This document shows positions 434 to 5,390 of a stretch of DNA of 5,436 nucleotides, piece by piece. The stretch comes from Chloroflexota bacterium. Lineage in GTDB: Bacteria; Chloroflexota; Chloroflexia; QHBQ01; JADMIH01. The number at the start of each line of letters is the position of its first letter. Positions within the stretch are counted from its first letter, which is position 1. Location: contig JADMIH010000227.1 in assembly GCA_015478675.1 (NCBI GenBank), positions 1 to 5,436 of the forward strand. Reading direction: 5' to 3'. The position numbers and the translations under genes were made by a program. The notes under the pieces are model-generated. The model ran no database searches. It was not told where the DNA came from and saw only the letters and a list, made by a program, of their open reading frames with translations.

Positions 434-574
434 ATGCTAACCACAAAACGCACCTTTGATTTACAAACAAAATATGGAGAGATAAAGATTGCTTCGAGCG
501 ATATGCTTGATATAAAAAGCGTGACTAATGATCTCCTGATACAAATCTTTGAGCGAATATATGATAGGTGTTAA
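434..574 (+). CDS. Small ORF, 46 aa, possible leader peptide or gene remnant
   Basis: The ORF runs from ATG at 434 to TAA at 572-574, preceded by a strong Shine-Dalgarno at ideal spacing. The product begins MLTTKRTFDL and ends FERIYDRC; it has no signal peptide, membrane segment or recognisable motif. I do not recognise the protein. It overlaps the start of the NUDIX fusion gene in another frame: its stop lies 14 nt inside if that gene starts at 561, and 26 nt inside if it starts at 549. This is the geometry of translational coupling. The segment 434-540 is about 36% GC by hand count, clearly lower than the genes around it, so it may be a remnant of foreign DNA. Either a coupling leader peptide or a chance ORF is possible. 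Confidence 0.4.
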   Translation: MLTTKRTFDLQTKYGEIKIASSDMLDIKSVTNDLLIQIFERIYDRC

Positions 575-2243
575 CGTTGCCATCTTCCGGGATAATCGCA
601 TTCTACTAACCAAGAGGGAAGACTATGAAGCGTGGTGCATGCCTGGCGGCCACGTAGATCCTGCCGAGTCAATAGCCCAGGCCGCTATGAGAGAAGTAGA
701 GGAGGAAACTGGGCTTAAAGTAAGACTTACGCGCCTCGTCGGTATATACTCACGGCCACGCTGGTTGAATGGTGACTATCATATCGTCCTGTTCACTGCT
801 GAGGTAGTGGGAGGCACTTTCCAGATGCAATCTGGCGAAGTAGTAGACATTGGCTATTTTGATCTTGCTGATCTACCCGTCCCTCTTTTGATCGGGCAGC
901 GAGAAAGGATAGTTGAAGCTGCAACAGACAATGGGGGTGGTACTGTAGCTGTGGAGGAAACGATCTGGCCTTTTCCACAAGAGACAACTCATATGGATGT
1001 ATATAGGCTCCGAGACGAATCAGGGCTGGCTAGAGATGAGTTCTACAGGCGATACTTCGTTCCCGCGGAGGTCGCAGGCAATCGCGTGGAAGTACCAGGA
1101 GCACACCAACCAAATAGTCAAGAGCTTCAGCCTACATTGAACAATGTACCAGCCCGCGAACCACATCAACTGATAGGTGCACAGCGAGCAGCTTACATAA
1201 CTTCCCAGCGTGTGGCACATCTCGCCACCGCTGACGCTGAGGGTCGCCCTCATGTAGTGCCCGTCTGCTACGCCTTCGACGGGCACTACTTCTACATAGC
1301 TCTCGATGACAAAGCTAAGAGCGTAGCGCCAACACGCCTCAAGCGGGTTCGCAATATCCTCGTTAACCCGCACGTCTCGCTGCTCATAGACAGCTACTAC
1401 GAAGATTGGCGTCGCCTCAGTTACCTGCTGGTGAGCGGCGCCGCTCACCTGGAGGAAGCAGGCACCACGCATCACACTCAGGCCGTCACACTGCTTCGTG
1501 AAAAATACCCGCAGTACCGGGCTATGAAGATAGACCAACGCCCCCTGATTGTCATTGAAGCCGTTACTGTGCACGGCTGGACTGGAAGCAGTATTCAAGA
1601 GGCTGAAGGAATGCCGCCTGAGCGCACAGAGCTTGACTTCGCTTCTCTGGTAAAGGGCAGGCATGTAGTGAGGCAATACAAGCACATACAGGTGCCCAGG
1701 GGATTGGTAGAAAGGACAATTGAGGCGGCGGGGTGGGCGCCTTCGCCTCACGGCATACAGCCCTGGCGCTTCGTAGTAATCACAAGAGCTGCTACGAAAG
1801 AGAAATTAGCGGCTGCTATGTCTGCTGATTGGCGGCTCAACCTGGAGATGGACGGCGAGAGCGCAGAGATAGTAGACACACGCCTGCGTAAGTCGCGCCT
1901 GCGTATAACCAACACTCCAGTGCTGATAATCCCCTGTCTCTATCTTGAAGATAGTCACCATTATGCTGACCCTGCCCGCCAGGAAGCTGAAGTAACAATG
2001 GCGGTCCAGAGCCTCGGAGCCGCCATACAAAACCTGCTACTCAGCGCGTACAGCCTCGGCCTCGACACAGGCTGGATGTGCGCCCCCCTTTTCTGTCCCG
2101 AAATAGTGCAGGGTGCGCTCGCGCTCCCTCCTACGCTGACGCCTCACGCTATGATCCAGCTAGGCTACGCAGCCAAAGACCCACCCAGGCGGCCTCATCG
2201 CCCTGTGAGTGAGCTGATATACAGCTACAACGAGGGCAAATGA
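549..2243 (+). CDS. NUDIX hydrolase - PPOX-class F420-dependent domain - FbiB C-terminal-like nitroreductase fusion protein
   Basis: This is one uninterrupted 564-codon frame carrying three domains. Residues ~5-125 are a NUDIX hydrolase with an exact NUDIX box: G34-x5-E40, then R48-E49-V-E-E52-E53-T-G55-L, the metal-binding helix that hydrolyses nucleoside-diphosphate-X substrates. Residues ~207-345 resemble the TIGR03668-type PPOX-class F420-dependent family (RVAHLATADAEGRPHVVPV, then RNILVNPHVSLLIDSYYEDW, then KYPQYRA), a split-barrel flavin/deazaflavin binder. Residues ~365-545 resemble the nitroreductase-fold C-terminal domain of FbiB (APSPHGIQPWRFVV near 397-410, an N-terminal R-x-Y after VV, and AAIQNLLLSAYSLGLDTGWM near 491-510). 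In FbiB that domain reduces dehydro-F420-0 using FMNH2. A linker of about 70 residues joins domains one and two, and one of about 20 joins two and three. The protein is predicted cytosolic, with no signal peptide. The start is uncertain: TTG at 549, or ATG at 561 (residue 5), which fits the NUDIX N-terminus equally well. Neither has a strong Shine-Dalgarno, so coupling to the small ORF is plausible. The substrate of the NUDIX part is unknown. Confidence 0.88.
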   Translation: MSEYMIGVNVAIFRDNRILLTKREDYEAWCMPGGHVDPAESIAQAAMREVEEETGLKVRLTRLVGIYSRPRWLNGDYHIVLFTAEVVGGTFQMQSGEVVDIGYFDLADLPVPLLIGQRERIVEAATDNGGGTVAVEETIWPFPQETTHMDVYRLRDESGLARDEFYRRYFVPAEVAGNRVEVPGAHQPNSQELQPTLNNVPAREPHQLIGAQRAAYITSQRVAHLATADAEGRPHVVPVCYAFDGHYFYIALDDKAKSVAPTRLKRVRNILVNPHVSLLIDSYYEDWRRLSYLLVSGAAHLEEAGTTHHTQAVTLLREKYPQYRAMKIDQRPLIVIEAVTVHGWTGSSIQEAEGMPPERTELDFASLVKGRHVVRQYKHIQVPRGLVERTIEAAGWAPSPHGIQPWRFVVITRAATKEKLAAAMSADWRLNLEMDGESAEIVDTRLRKSRLRITNTPVLIIPCLYLEDSHHYADPARQEAEVTMAVQSLGAAIQNLLLSAYSLGLDTGWMCAPLFCPEIVQGALALPPTLTPHAMIQLGYAAKDPPRRPHRPVSELIYSYNEGK

Positions 2244-3172
2244 ATCTCCGGCAGCACCCGCTCGATCTCGTTTCGCTCTGCCTCATACCAGGGAGGCAGC
2301 TTCAGGTGCGTGCCTAGCTCGTCCGGCGCCTCGTCTATCAGGAAGCCCGGCGGGTCGGTAGCAATCTCGAAGAGCACGCCGCCCGGCTCGCGAAAATAAA
2401 TTGAGTGGAAGTATTCACGGTCCAGTACCGGAGTAACACTATAGCCCCGCGCCGCGATCTCCTCACGCCACGCTGCCTGCGCTTCGTCACTCAGGGCGCG
2501 ATAAGCCACATGATGTATTGTGCCTACCGCCACTATGCCGCGCCGCTGCCCTGGCAACTCAAGCAGATCAACAGTAGCGCCCGCGCCACCTTCACCTGTC
2601 TCGTAGCGAAAACGGTTGCCCTGCGCGCCCACCAACCGGAAGCCAAGTAGATACGTCAGCATGGAAGCAGTGCGCTCGTAGCTCTCCTCCGACAGCGTAA
2701 CGCCATGAAGACCCCTTATCCCGAACTCGGCAGGCACAGGTCCACCCGGCCAGCCTGCCCGCACATCACTCTTGCCGCCTTCTACAAGCTCAACCTGTAA
2801 GCTGTCGGGGTCAAGAAAAGTAATTACCTGCTCGCCAAAGCGCTCCTTTGGCTCCTCTACTTCCATCCTCGCGCTTGCCAGCCTGTTGCGCCAGTAGCTA
2901 GCCGACCCTTGCGGTATTGAGAAGGCCACAGCCGTGCTTTGGCCGGTCCCTCTGCGCCCTTGCTGCGCACCCGGCCACGGAAAGAAGGTAAGGATTGTGC
3001 CTGCGTTGCCAATCTCATCTCCATAATAAAAGTGATAAGTGCCAGGATCGTCGAAGTTGACTGTCTTCTTCACCAGACGTAATCCGAGCAGCCTCACGTA
3101 AAAGTCAATATTCCTCTGCGGTTCACCCGCGATAGCCGTCACATGATGTATGCCGGGGATCTCTTCACTCAT
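2225..3172 (-). CDS. Ring-cleaving dioxygenase, VOC/glyoxalase superfamily (hydroquinone type, MhqO/LinE/PcpA-like)
   Basis: A 315-residue two-module vicinal-oxygen-chelate protein of normal family length. The N-terminal module opens with GIHHVTAIAGEPQRNIDFY and continues GLRLVKKTVNFDDPGTYHFY and TILTFFPWPGA. The second module starts near LHGVTLSEE (155-163). By comparison with PcpA-type enzymes, the Fe(II) ligands are H10, H221 (in TIHHVAYRA) and E269 (in GGVLFEIATDPPGF); their spacing matches that family. These enzymes open the ring of (chloro)hydroquinones or similar aromatics with O2. The start at 3172 is chosen because AAGGG lies 8 nt upstream (3181-3185) and homologous sequence begins there; an in-frame start at 3217 lacks a ribosome site and would lie inside the preceding gene. 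The gene begins 5 nt after the flavin reductase stop, so the two form an operon. Its 3' end overlaps the NUDIX fusion gene by 19 nt in antiparallel orientation. The exact substrate is unproven. Confidence 0.85.
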   Translation of the reverse strand: MSEEIPGIHHVTAIAGEPQRNIDFYVRLLGLRLVKKTVNFDDPGTYHFYYGDEIGNAGTILTFFPWPGAQQGRRGTGQSTAVAFSIPQGSASYWRNRLASARMEVEEPKERFGEQVITFLDPDSLQVELVEGGKSDVRAGWPGGPVPAEFGIRGLHGVTLSEESYERTASMLTYLLGFRLVGAQGNRFRYETGEGGAGATVDLLELPGQRRGIVAVGTIHHVAYRALSDEAQAAWREEIAARGYSVTPVLDREYFHSIYFREPGGVLFEIATDPPGFLIDEAPDELGTHLKLPPWYEAERNEIERVLPEIHLPSL

Positions 3173-3177
3173 TCTTT

Positions 3178-3756
3178 TTACCCTTGTTCCGCGCCCCGCC
3201 TCAACCGTCGTGTCCATTCTGCCAGCGCCTGTAGGAGAGCGCTAATCTGTCCTCGAAGAGCATCGTCCGTCAGGTTGCCCTGCTCATCGAACATATTAGC
3301 CGCCTGCCTTATGAAGACCTCGGGCTTATTTATCGGGTACATATTTGTAAAGATCGCCACCTGCCTTAGATGCAACTGAGCGCGAAGCGTGCCATTGAGA
3401 CCGCTCGATGCGCCCATCATGCAGAGCGGTTTGCCGTTGAGAGAGTTCTGCCCAATGGGGCGTGATGCCCAGTCTATAGCGTTCTTCAACACACCTGGCA
3501 TCGAGTAGTTGTACTCAGGAGTAACTATCAGCAGCGCATCAGCGGCTGCTATGCGCTCTTTGAACTCCTTGACAGGCTCCGGTATTCCAGCATCCTCAAC
3601 ATCGCCGTTGTAGAGCGGAATAGGCGAGAGGTCAAAAGTCTCCATCGATACGCCCTCTGGGAGAAGCTCTTCAGCCGCCCGCAACGTAGCGCGGTTATAG
3701 GAGCCTTTTCGCAGGCTCCCCGCGAAACCAAGCAGATGTATATTATCAAGGGGCAT
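3178..3756 (-). CDS. NAD(P)H-dependent FMN reductase (flavodoxin-like, azoreductase/quinone reductase family)
   Basis: A 192-residue flavodoxin-fold protein of usual family length. The FMN phosphate loop is GFAGSLRKGSYNRATLRAA (residues ~10-28 from this start). The flavin-contacting segment is TPEYNYSMPGVLKNAIDWAS (~79-98), followed by the KPLCMMGASSG strand and loop. Such enzymes transfer two electrons from NAD(P)H through FMN to quinones, azo dyes, chromate or free flavin. Two starts are possible. ATG 3756 has AAAGGAGAG upstream (3766-3774; GGAGAG spaced 9 nt) and matches the family N-terminus. ATG 3831 adds 25 low-complexity residues but has GGGAGG at 3841-3846, 9 nt upstream. I prefer 3756 on homology, without certainty. 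It is the first gene of an operon with the ring-cleaving dioxygenase, which suggests quinone/hydroquinone detoxification. An IS630 element lies 40 nt upstream of the longer start and has probably displaced the native promoter. Confidence 0.85.
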   Translation of the reverse strand: MPLDNIHLLGFAGSLRKGSYNRATLRAAEELLPEGVSMETFDLSPIPLYNGDVEDAGIPEPVKEFKERIAAADALLIVTPEYNYSMPGVLKNAIDWASRPIGQNSLNGKPLCMMGASSGLNGTLRAQLHLRQVAIFTNMYPINKPEVFIRQAANMFDEQGNLTDDALRGQISALLQALAEWTRRLRRGAEQG

Positions 3757-3840
3757 AATTGGTGTCTCTCCTTTGGTCAGTGGTGTGCCTTTGCCATAAC
3801 CGTCTTCTCTATCAAGAGCTGTGCCGCTCATATTGACGAG

Positions 3841-3846: not shown

Positions 3847-3900
3847 AGGTCTTGCGTGTCACTAATGCCCTAGTACAGGTTGGCGTAAAAAGAACCATGT

Positions 3901-4632
3901 TTATGCCACCAAAGCCTTGCCCCGGTATGTCCAGGCAAAAGGCTTTGCCATCGTCTTGTTGTAATAGTCAATGAACTCCAACACCTTCTCTTGCAACTCC
4001 TCAACCGAGCGGAAGCTACCACGCTTGAGCAGCTTGCGTACCAGTATGCTCAGCCAGATCGAGATCTGGTTGAGCCATGAACTGTGCTTGGGTGTGTAGT
4101 GGAACACGATCTTGTGCGTGGGGTCAGAAAGGAACACCGCTCTCGTTTGACGGTTGTGCAGGATACCACTCTTACCCTTCTCTCCCAAGTCCATCTCGTC
4201 CAACCCCGAGGCTTTGGCTACCAGCCGCACCAGCGTCTCGGAACGGTGCGTGTCCAGGTTGTCCACCACGAAGTGCCATCTGGTTACGTCCGGCTCGGCG
4301 ACCACCGTGCCAAGCACATGGGAGGCAAAGTCAGCCTCATTGCGCGTGGGTCCACAAGAGGTGTTGCCAATCGTCCCACTTGCCACGTTCAGGTCGATGA
4401 TGAACGACCGTGTACCATGCCGAATGTACTCGAACTCTCGGCGTTCTACCTTGCCCGGTTGCGTAGGCAAAGTTGGGTGGCGTCGCTCCAGAGCCTGTAC
4501 TCCAGTCATCTCATCCGTGCTCACTATCCGCTCCCCTTGCTTGGTCAACTCCCCGGCTGTACGATAGAGTTCACACACGTCCACGACTTTCTCATCGAAC
4601 TGTTCTTCTCTCTCATAGGTGGGAGGTGTCAA
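3901..4632 (-). CDS. IS630 transposase, C-terminal half (DDE domain), catalytic Glu replaced by Ser
   Basis: This 243-codon frame covers the RNase-H-like DDE catalytic domain. The first acidic residue is D40 (IVSTDEMTG), the second D124 (FVVDNLDTH). The third position, normally E in a WLNQVEIWFS-type motif, is S191 in WLNQISIWLS (codon at 4060-4062), so the triad is D-D-S. The C-terminus KPFAWTYRGKALVA is the normal family end, so the domain is not truncated. The frame opens with TTG at 4632 and lacks a ribosome site. The family motif GDLKPHLSRYWLTPP runs into it from upstream in this same frame (4671 downward), showing that it is the continuation of the N-terminal frame through a -1 shift, giving a 407-residue fused product. 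With the lost glutamate it is likely catalytically dead. Confidence 0.88.
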   Translation of the reverse strand: MTPPTYEREEQFDEKVVDVCELYRTAGELTKQGERIVSTDEMTGVQALERRHPTLPTQPGKVERREFEYIRHGTRSFIIDLNVASGTIGNTSCGPTRNEADFASHVLGTVVAEPDVTRWHFVVDNLDTHRSETLVRLVAKASGLDEMDLGEKGKSGILHNRQTRAVFLSDPTHKIVFHYTPKHSSWLNQISIWLSILVRKLLKRGSFRSVEELQEKVLEFIDYYNKTMAKPFAWTYRGKALVA

Positions 4633-5123
4633 CCAGTAGCGTGAGAGGTGCGGCTTGAGGTCCCCCTTTTTAGCAGCCTGGCCGCATGGCGAGGGGAGAT
4701 TTCCTCCAGGATACCGCGCTCGATTATCTCATCGGCAATCTCTCGACTGCTCCATTGGCTGATCGGACGACCGCTTTCAGAGGGAGCTTCACACGCCAAG
4801 GCTATGATTTGGCATACTGCCTCGGCGCTGATGCGGGCAGGCGTGCCTGGACGTGGCGCATCGGTCAATCGATCTTCGATACTCAAGTCCTCGAGGGAGG
4901 CAGCCGCCAGCCCCAACCACCTGTTACGCCAAAGCCGAGCCATATCAAGGCTGATGTCGAGAGCGCGAGCTATCTGGGCGTTGTTGAGACCATCTGCGGC
5001 AGCCAACACGATGCGAGCACGCAAAACGAGTTGCTGCGGTGTTGAGTGGCGGCGCACCAGTGCCAGCAGACCCTGTCGCTGCCTATCTGAAAGCTCGATA
5101 ATCGGGGGTTTAGGTCCTCGCAT
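4629..5123 (-). CDS. IS630 transposase, N-terminal half (helix-turn-helix DNA-binding domain)
   Basis: A 164-residue frame starting MRGPKPPIIELSDRQRQ with a Shine-Dalgarno GAGAGG (5132-5137) 8 nt upstream, which sets the start. A TTG-started extension to 5186 would run into the terminal inverted repeat and is unlikely. The helix-turn-helix that binds the IS ends is in NNAQIARALDISLDMARLWRNRW; a second winged-helix-like region includes WSSREIADEI and HAARLLKRG. After LLK the family motif leaves this frame: the last 12 residues (RGTSSRTSHATG) are out-of-frame tail. The frame overlaps the C-terminal half by 4 nt at its end and by far more functionally. Either programmed frameshifting or a one-base deletion explains the split. 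Confidence 0.85.
   Translation of the reverse strand: MRGPKPPIIELSDRQRQGLLALVRRHSTPQQLVLRARIVLAAADGLNNAQIARALDISLDMARLWRNRWLGLAAASLEDLSIEDRLTDAPRPGTPARISAEAVCQIIALACEAPSESGRPISQWSSREIADEIIERGILEEISPRHAARLLKRGTSSRTSHATG
4662..4671 (-). other. Frameshift site A5G5 between the transposase halves
   Basis: On the minus strand the run AAAAAGGGGG is read CTA-AAA-AGG-GGG-ACC in the N-terminal frame. Slipping back one base on A-AAA-AGG gives AAA-AAG-GGG-GAC, producing LLKKGDLKPHLSRYW, the expected family sequence. The run could therefore be a programmed -1 slippery site or a transcriptional slippage site. It could equally be a mutation: an ancestral A6G5 or A5G6 would be in frame. Confidence 0.7.
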
Positions 5124-5159
5124 GGCTGTTACCTCTCTGTTCACGTTCGTCTTGCAGCT

Positions 5160-5186
5160 ACTATACCATTGTCTGATTTCAGCCAA
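5160..5186 (-). promoter_or_regulatory. Candidate transposase promoter inside the IS630 right end
   Basis: On the minus strand TATAGT (5165-5160) could be a -10 box, and TTGGCT (5186-5181), partly in the terminal repeat, a -35 box with a short 15-nt spacer. It lies 37 nt upstream of the transposase start. The spacing is below the usual 16-18, so the call is tentative. Confidence 0.35.
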
Positions 5187-5233
5187 CCTGTACTAGGTGT
5201 GACGGCCCCTAGCCCGCTGAGCGATAACCACCA

Positions 5234-5372
5234 GTAAATGTTCAGAATAGGGGTTACAAGGGTGTCCCCTGGCCCTCACCCCATGCCCCTCTCCCCTTGT
5301 GGGAGAGGGGCATGGGGTGAGGGCGCACAGCTAACTCTTGAACTTTGTTCTACCCTGAACCTGAACAGTTAC
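5234..5372 (-). mobile_element. MITE copy 2 (139 bp), inverted relative to copy 1
   Basis: The ends are GTAAATGTTCAG (5234-5245) and CTGAACAGTTAC (5361-5372), matching as inverted repeats at 11 of 12 positions. The reverse complement aligns along its length with 148-285, including the AACTTTGTTCTACCCTGAA side and the AGAATAGGGGTTACA side. The flanking 8-mers AACCACCA and CACAGCCA agree at only 5 of 8 positions, so a target duplication is not clear here; this is an older or altered insertion. It contains no coding sequence. Confidence 0.82.
5272..5324. repeat. Perfect 24-bp-arm palindrome inside MITE copy 2
   Basis: The left arm starts GCCCTCACCCCATG (5272 onward) and ends at 5295; the right arm (5301-5324) is its exact reverse complement, ending CATGGGGTGAGGGC. 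The loop is CTTGT (5296-5300). The GC-rich stem would form a very stable hairpin in RNA or single-stranded DNA. In copy 1 the corresponding region has decayed to an imperfect palindrome. Confidence 0.9.
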
Positions 5373-5390
5373 CACAGCCAAAAGTATAGT
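5362..5390 (+). promoter_or_regulatory. Candidate promoter using the MITE end as -35
   Basis: TGAACA (5362-5367), part of the MITE terminal repeat, matches TTGACA at 4 of 6 positions. It is separated by 17 nt from TATAGT (5385-5390), a 5-of-6 match to TATAAT. The pair points toward the ribosome binding site at 5424-5430. This suggests that the insertion supplied or altered the promoter of the gene beyond the window. Confidence 0.4.

Follow-up and report, generated by a model that had tools for sequence, protein, structure and literature searches.

A putative F420-pathway PPOX-FbiE protein in one open frame with a NUDIX hydrolase on a short Chloroflexota contig

Results

The window (the whole 5,436-nucleotide stretch of Chloroflexota DNA analysed here) carries on its forward strand a single stop-free open frame, 549..2243, that encodes NUDIX, PPOX and nitroreductase domains together, as the earlier note had read it. 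The frame has 564 codons if TTG 549 starts it and 560 from the alternative ATG 561; the latter is the start of the database protein P0002 (the window's own protein, known from 1 contig of 5436 bases) and is the likelier start. All three Pfam domains exceed their gathering scores: NUDIX (PF00293) at residues 5-112 with 82.9 bits, PNPOx_N at residues 214-344 with 49.2 bits, and Nitroreductase at residues 368-540 with 96.8 bits. With the NCBIfam models, the protein passes TIGR03668, the F420-dependent class of PPOX proteins (140.1 bits vs a cut-off of 119.15), while TIGR03553, the FbiB C-terminus, ranks first by E-value over the nitroreductase stretch with 146.8 bits, under its equivalog cut-off of 249.55. 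These Pfam and NCBIfam scores are far above chance level.

From ATG 561 the frame comprises a NUDIX hydrolase unit, complete with its C-terminal tail (RDESGLARDEFYRRYF...VEVPG, 561..1100; PF00293 and 13 aligned homologues), which includes at 648..713 the complete NUDIX box GX5EX7REUXEEXG (GHVDPAESIAQAAMREVEEETG) that had been claimed for it; a linker of 22 codons, w/o recognised homologues (1101..1166); a PPOX/FDOR-B split-barrel domain (1188..1580); and an FbiE/FbiB-C-type nitroreductase domain, predicted to be a dehydro-F420 reductase (1653..2219). A possible separate PPOX-FbiE gene of 368 codons starts at TTG 1137 and ends with the frame (1137..2243, forward strand). At its other end, a 46-codon forward-strand frame (MLTTKRTFDLQTKYGE..., 434-574) overlaps the start of the NUDIX part. 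A structure model of the full protein was discarded as unreliable in its NUDIX part (pLDDT <50 at residues 8-32 and 85-199).

On the reverse strand, a glyoxalase/dioxygenase-like protein with two VOC domains (2225-3217) and an overlapping NADPH-dependent FMN reductase-like protein (3178-3831) form a perhaps quinone-detoxifying pair that converges on the PPOX-FbiE frame, with which it shares 19 bases; no likeness to either neighbour was found at E <= 1e-10 in the 179 loci around PPOX-FbiE relatives. An IS630-type element (3869-5197) follows, bounded by 21-base terminal inverted repeats (3869-3889 and 5177-5197), with two overlapping reverse-strand frames (3901-4632 and 4629-5186) that may be joined by frameshifting or may represent a broken copy. 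A palindromic repeat, perhaps a miniature mobile element, is present in two copies of opposite orientation near the window ends (144-285 and 5234-5376), with outer arms GTAACTGTTCAG...CTGAACAGTTAC and a C/G-rich core; a search of 400 genomes of one phylum gave matches to its short core only, in 21 of them.

Residues ~207-564 of the window protein correspond to a two-domain protein, PPOX plus FbiE/FbiB-C-type nitroreductase, that occurs w/o NUDIX across many relatives in Chloroflexota, Thermomicrobiota and Rubrobacter. The earlier note had overlooked that this part of the frame is a widespread gene. Our search of about 5.8 billion proteins, which relies on shared five-residue words and length limits such that distant or fragmentary three-domain proteins may escape it, gave 1323 matches at E <= 1e-10 from 7997 candidates scored. 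Among the best 120 of these, which were listed, the 119 other than the window protein have 317-385 residues and 54-87% identity; nearly all bear PPOX and nitroreductase together, with only a few exceptions, and none of the 119 has PF00293 in the precomputed Pfam column. Where database names are given to two-domain relatives, they are TIGR03668 oxidoreductase, PPOX enzyme or F420 ligase. The nearest listed relative, P0003 (87% identical, 368 aa), has no NUDIX part and starts from a Met of its own shortly ahead of the PPOX domain, its similarity to the window protein starting at about residue 207.

Scanning genomes gave 303 related stretches, the best 80 of which were taken as loci: L001-L046 match PPOX plus nitroreductase, and L047-L080 are nitroreductase w/o adjoining PPOX. 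Named strains among the former include Rubrobacter taiwanensis (L032) and Rubrobacter marinus (L012). At E <= 1e-60, P0003 has a match, one per genome, in 102 of 158 genomes in the class-level search around G001 and in 39 of 47 in that around G003. The window retains 133 of the 136 columns that are at least 90% conserved across 78 two-domain proteins; one proline that is invariant in all 78 is alanine in the window, as it also is in a single-domain PPOX protein of another genome. Among the 36 two-domain genomes, 4 have a PPOX part that scores below the TIGR03668 cut-off, one being G018, where the frame is broken. At ~1.2 kb upstream of PPOX-FbiE, two of the loci have an additional PPOX-like stretch with a weaker match (about 33% identity; L007, 8413-8643; L013, 1027-1269).

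To place the nitroreductase domain we built a quick maximum-likelihood tree of 88 rows, in which the labels CofE-FbiB-C and solo were assigned from frame lengths, not from a ligase test. Two-domain rows were taken from at most 23 of the 46 loci L001-L046 (odd numbers, identical rows once), from 16 of the 119 other listed proteins and from four actinobacterial sequences, one being dropped as identical to another, which left 42; further rows were 21 solo reductases, 14 FbiB proteins and 10 other nitroreductases. The window pairs with P0003 (SH-aLRT 99) within a 61-row FbiE clade (SH-aLRT 96), whose neighbour group is the 14 FbiB-C rows with three actinobacterial solo rows. The 10 other nitroreductases stand apart, on a weak separating branch (SH-aLRT 13) and with two very long rows. 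Rows of PPOX-FbiE and of solo FbiE intermingle in the tree: with the window counted outside, 7 changes of the two-domain label are needed, and the starred branches require at least 3, one possibly the window itself. The fusion was therefore probably gained or lost more than once.

Published docking sets FbiB residues P289, R337 and M372 at the substrate (Bashiri et al. 2019, PMC6450877). P289 is kept in all 78 FbiE/FbiB rows, the window included, and M372 in 72 of 78; neither is found in any of the 10 other nitroreductases. The window keeps both, along with H290, but carries K in place of R337, a position that varies among relatives. P0003 scores 154.2 bits with TIGR03553, also below the equivalog cut-off, and only 7 of 149 genomes in a sample of the actinobacterial phylum exceed that cut-off; the model therefore seems narrow. 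No CofE ligase domain was found in the window protein by Pfam, and of the full-length FbiB model just the reductase part (positions 257-446) is matched. By these sequence criteria the window nitroreductase is to be called FbiE-type, not FbiB. The structure model of P0003 is good per domain (mean pLDDT 90.6; pTM 0.63), and its top Foldseek matches are the FbiB-C structures 4xom, 4xoq and 4xoo, FMN and F420 complexes among them, with 4zky and F420-bound 5jv4 (F420-binding MSMEG_6526) matching the PPOX part at ranks 17 and 19. An FbiB-C-like third domain and an F420-dependent class of PPOX, both proposed before from the letters alone, thus hold up, the former by TIGR03553 rank, tree, pocket residues and P0003 fold, the latter by TIGR03668 score and the F420-bound fold match of P0003.

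We examined the F420 gene neighbourhood in 36 two-domain genomes that are hand-picked, related and non-random, many being incomplete metagenome bins. In 34 of the 36, cofE is over its cut-off, and likewise cofD in 34; neither is over cut-off in G008 and G014. The PPOX-FbiE gene lies on the same contig as cofD or cofE and within 15 kb of it in 12 genomes (G003, G009, G011, G016, G017, G018, G111, G112, G113, G114, G115 and G177), while in the remaining 24 these genes were either placed on different contigs or not found. Separate contigs are uninformative when short; a long contig, as in G015, argues against clustering. Of seven two-domain cluster regions retrieved, two were read gene by gene, L170 (G003) and L171 (G177; its cofD and cofE placed by separate profile searches of genomes). 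In both, cofD, cofC, cofE, an FGD-like LLM enzyme (TIGR03557) and PPOX-FbiE follow one another consecutively, PPOX-FbiE being last. The co-occurrence with cofC, cofD and cofE that had been put forward as a check is thus seen in relatives, cofC being present in both clusters scanned. At the head of the L170 cluster, a further F420-class PPOX gene (TIGR03618, over cut-off; 10113-10637, reverse strand) overlaps the cofD start. Of the 10 solo genomes examined, 7 have the solo FbiE-type reductase gene flanked by cofE and cofD (G019, G020, G021, G168, G183, G187 and G205). Scores over the TIGR03668 cut-off occur in 32 of the 36 two-domain genomes, in 12 of 17 with solo FbiE and in 3 of 16 that have no FbiE match at E <= 1e-60; in hand-picked related genomes, such co-occurrence with solo FbiE is suggestive only.

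For FO synthase, no CofG or CofH over cut-off was found in 30 of the 36 genomes with PPOX-FbiE and in 6 of the 10 with solo FbiE, CofH-like matches of about 295-312 bits, below cut-off, being present in 4 of these 46 (G003, G175, G176 and G077). The gap includes the complete chromosome G003 and Dictyobacter strains (G019, which is L048, and G187, by coordinates L059), and the genomes concerned mostly retain cofD and cofE. De novo F420 synthesis looks incomplete in PPOX-FbiE genomes w/o FO synthase over cut-off, which suggests FO uptake or an unrecognised FO synthase.

The NUDIX part has a separate set of relatives. Residues 1-184 searched alone (length limit about 101-322 aa) match 166 proteins; the best 120 of these, which were listed, are mostly about 180-190 residues long, the best full-length match being 59% identical. 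All 13 stand-alone homologues that we aligned end 2-8 residues past the point matching window residue 184, and the junction in the window frame coincides with this usual end. When residues 1-205 were searched against proteins of 310-987 aa (E <= 1e-10; 13 matches), none of the 12 besides the window protein had PPOX or nitroreductase: three are isolated fusions in which this NUDIX subfamily is joined to other, unrelated proteins (SurE, a methyltransferase and part of MreB), and the nine others are two-NUDIX or NUDIX-only by Pfam columns or names. A NUDIX match near relatives (E <= 1e-4) was found in 2 of 80 loci only (ten of the loci being <6 kb), 30-33% identical and about 7 kb off. No match spanning NUDIX and PPOX-nitroreductase was listed in 400 genomes of G003's phylum; one in G585 that seemed to begin in the NUDIX tail was rejected because its PPOX frame is preceded by stops and has no NUDIX before it.

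Third-position GC is 0.473 in the NUDIX part, 0.604 in PPOX and 0.613 in the nitroreductase, and drops to 0.292 over residues 183-206, which span the linker (24 codons, a small sample). The linker's two other frames stop at 1115-1117, within the end range of stand-alone NUDIX proteins, and at 1138-1140, and TTG 1137 is in frame, preceded by only a weak AAGAG 12 bases before it (by eye). Matches from residues 155-190 hinted at linker likeness in L002, L011, L019, L040 and L113, none of which bore it out by eye.

Discussion

The stand-alone NUDIX proteins end at the junction and P0003 has its own Met; two whole genes therefore appear to be joined through the ~22-codon linker. In our view the frame is quite likely a recent end-to-end join of two complete genes, an F420-making PPOX-FbiE and an ordinary NUDIX hydrolase. 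The upstream unit would be a house-cleaning enzyme, the join would have come about by stop loss or a small indel, in the organism or in assembly, and translation from TTG 1137 could still yield the normal two-domain enzyme. We judge the NUDIX joining to be recent and incidental, or else an indel or assembly error.

The second of these options, in which an indel in the linker merges adjacent or overlapping NUDIX and PPOX-FbiE genes (the latter from TTG 1137) through sequencing or assembly error, we regard as a serious possibility, though short of an even chance. It would account for the other-frame stop at 1115-1117 just where NUDIX proteins usually end, for a linker of very low third-position GC w/o recognised homologues, and for a TTG 1137 product matching P0003 in length, and the protein is known from 1 contig of just 5,436 bases. 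Against it, the database cluster has 2 member sequences, albeit on 1 contig, and TTG 1137 is preceded by the weak AAGAG only. The palindromic repeat family near both window ends is weak counter-evidence to a two-species chimera, since its core also occurs in other genomes, and is compatible with a misjoin within one genome.

The PPOX-FbiE part, in the window and in its relatives, is most probably a dehydro-F420 reductase of the F420 pathway, because of its grouping with FbiE/FbiB-C, its P289 and M372, and the proximity of cofD/cofE in relatives. By analogy with FbiB and FbiE, the FMN-bearing nitroreductase domain would use FMNH2 as the hydride donor to reduce the enolpyruvyl double bond of dehydro-F420 and so form F420. 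The PPOX domain, judging by TIGR03668 and the F420-bound relative 5jv4, would bind F420 or F420H2, and most likely either retains the product or provides F420H2 electrons. In the published FbiB assay (PMC6450877), FMNH2 came from added E. coli flavin reductase. Fusion of an F420-binding-type domain, with an FGD-like enzyme adjoining, suggests F420H2 as the donor, or product holding. We tentatively propose, well short of expecting it, that PPOX-FbiE is a self-sustaining F420 maturase, in which PPOX takes hydride from F420H2 supplied by the adjoining FGD-like enzyme and reduces the FMN of the FbiE domain. If so, mature F420 would power the final reduction of its own precursor, and single-domain TIGR03668/FDOR-B2 proteins would be the partners of FbiE where the two genes are separate.

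The PPOX-nitroreductase could instead be a general F420H2- or FMN-dependent detoxifying reductase, as reduction of many foreign compounds is frequent among FDOR-type PPOX proteins (PMC8498797 and PMC5449967). We find this improbable: a single match at E <= 1e-60 per genome, PPOX fused or not, occurs in 102 + 39 genomes; tree and residue signature point to FbiE/FbiB; the gene adjoins cofD, cofC and cofE in relatives; and in most of the solo genomes examined (7 of 10) cofE and cofD flank a solo FbiE from the same clade. In the same sources, MSMEG_6526 is judged by docking to be poorly suited to general substrates (PMC5449967), and the physiological substrate of the FDOR-B2 group is given as unknown (PMC8498797).

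A functional three-domain enzyme, whose NUDIX domain would hydrolyse a nucleotide-linked F420 intermediate (e.g. enolpyruvyl-diphospho-guanosine) or damaged cofactor beside the reductase, has intact motifs in all three domains and an open frame in its favour, but is very hard to credit, being a singleton in protein searches, with a nearest relative w/o NUDIX, no listed match of its architecture in 400 genomes of G003's phylum and NUDIX in only 2 of 80 related loci, while loss of a guanylylated intermediate would presumably counter the pathway. The earlier note had suggested that the F420 step might be coupled to NUDIX hydrolysis of a possibly guanylylated precursor in this way; its proposal to look for the same architecture elsewhere returned, among the matches listed, only the window protein itself, and the nearest NUDIX match in the 80 related loci (ten of them <6 kb) is about 7 kb away. 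Of two outcomes it had weighed against itself, homologues encoded as separate genes are what we find, while the third domain groups apart from ordinary nitroreductases.

FbiE, FbiB-C, PPOX and NUDIX are all known kinds, and the PPOX-FbiE combination is common in databases. Stand-alone FbiE, which the earlier note had missed, is described as the dehydro-F420 reductase of Chloroflexi, from Thermomicrobium roseum (Braga et al. 2020, as cited in PMC8498797 and PMC8764529). The window shares its kind of nitroreductase domain, and its clade also takes in solo FbiE-type genes from other Chloroflexota, the T. roseum protein not being singled out among the rows; in contrast to that stand-alone enzyme, the window has PPOX before the reductase and, in the window only, NUDIX before PPOX. 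The C-terminal domain of actinobacterial FbiB (PDB 4xom, 4xoo and 4xoq) is the best solved relative by sequence and, for P0003, by fold, but FbiB is a reductase fused to the CofE ligase, whereas in the window the N-terminal position is taken by PPOX, and PPOX-FbiE relatives carry cofE as a gene of its own. MSMEG_6526 (FDOR-B2; PDB 4zky, and 5jv4 with F420), presumably itself a TIGR03668 member, and the TIGR03668 PPOX proteins, whose family model the window domain passes, are its best solved relatives on the PPOX side; unlike the window protein, they are single-domain. The PPOX-FbiE proteins of Chloroflexota and Rubrobacter (most of P0003 to P0121) have the same two domains, with up to 87% identity, and lack NUDIX. 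The NUDIX hydrolases P0135 to P0253, many of them JGI-named YjhB-like ADP-ribose pyrophosphatase, resemble the window over their whole length including the C-terminal tail (13 aligned), but are mostly single proteins of about 180-190 residues (search range about 101-322). We found no description of the PPOX-FbiE combination in the accessible parts of the literature, including PMC8498797, PMC8764529, PMC6450877 and PMC5449967; Braga et al. 2020 may mention it.

The NUDIX addition, and with it the three-domain singleton, is probably incidental, and serves as a caution against taking one uninterrupted frame on a short contig as evidence for a functioning multi-domain enzyme. The part worth following is the PPOX-FbiE fusion rather than the NUDIX joining. 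Its presence in an F420 cluster makes the natural electron donor of the reductase directly testable, and the fusion suggests a role in F420 maturation for an orphan family of F420-binding PPOX proteins.
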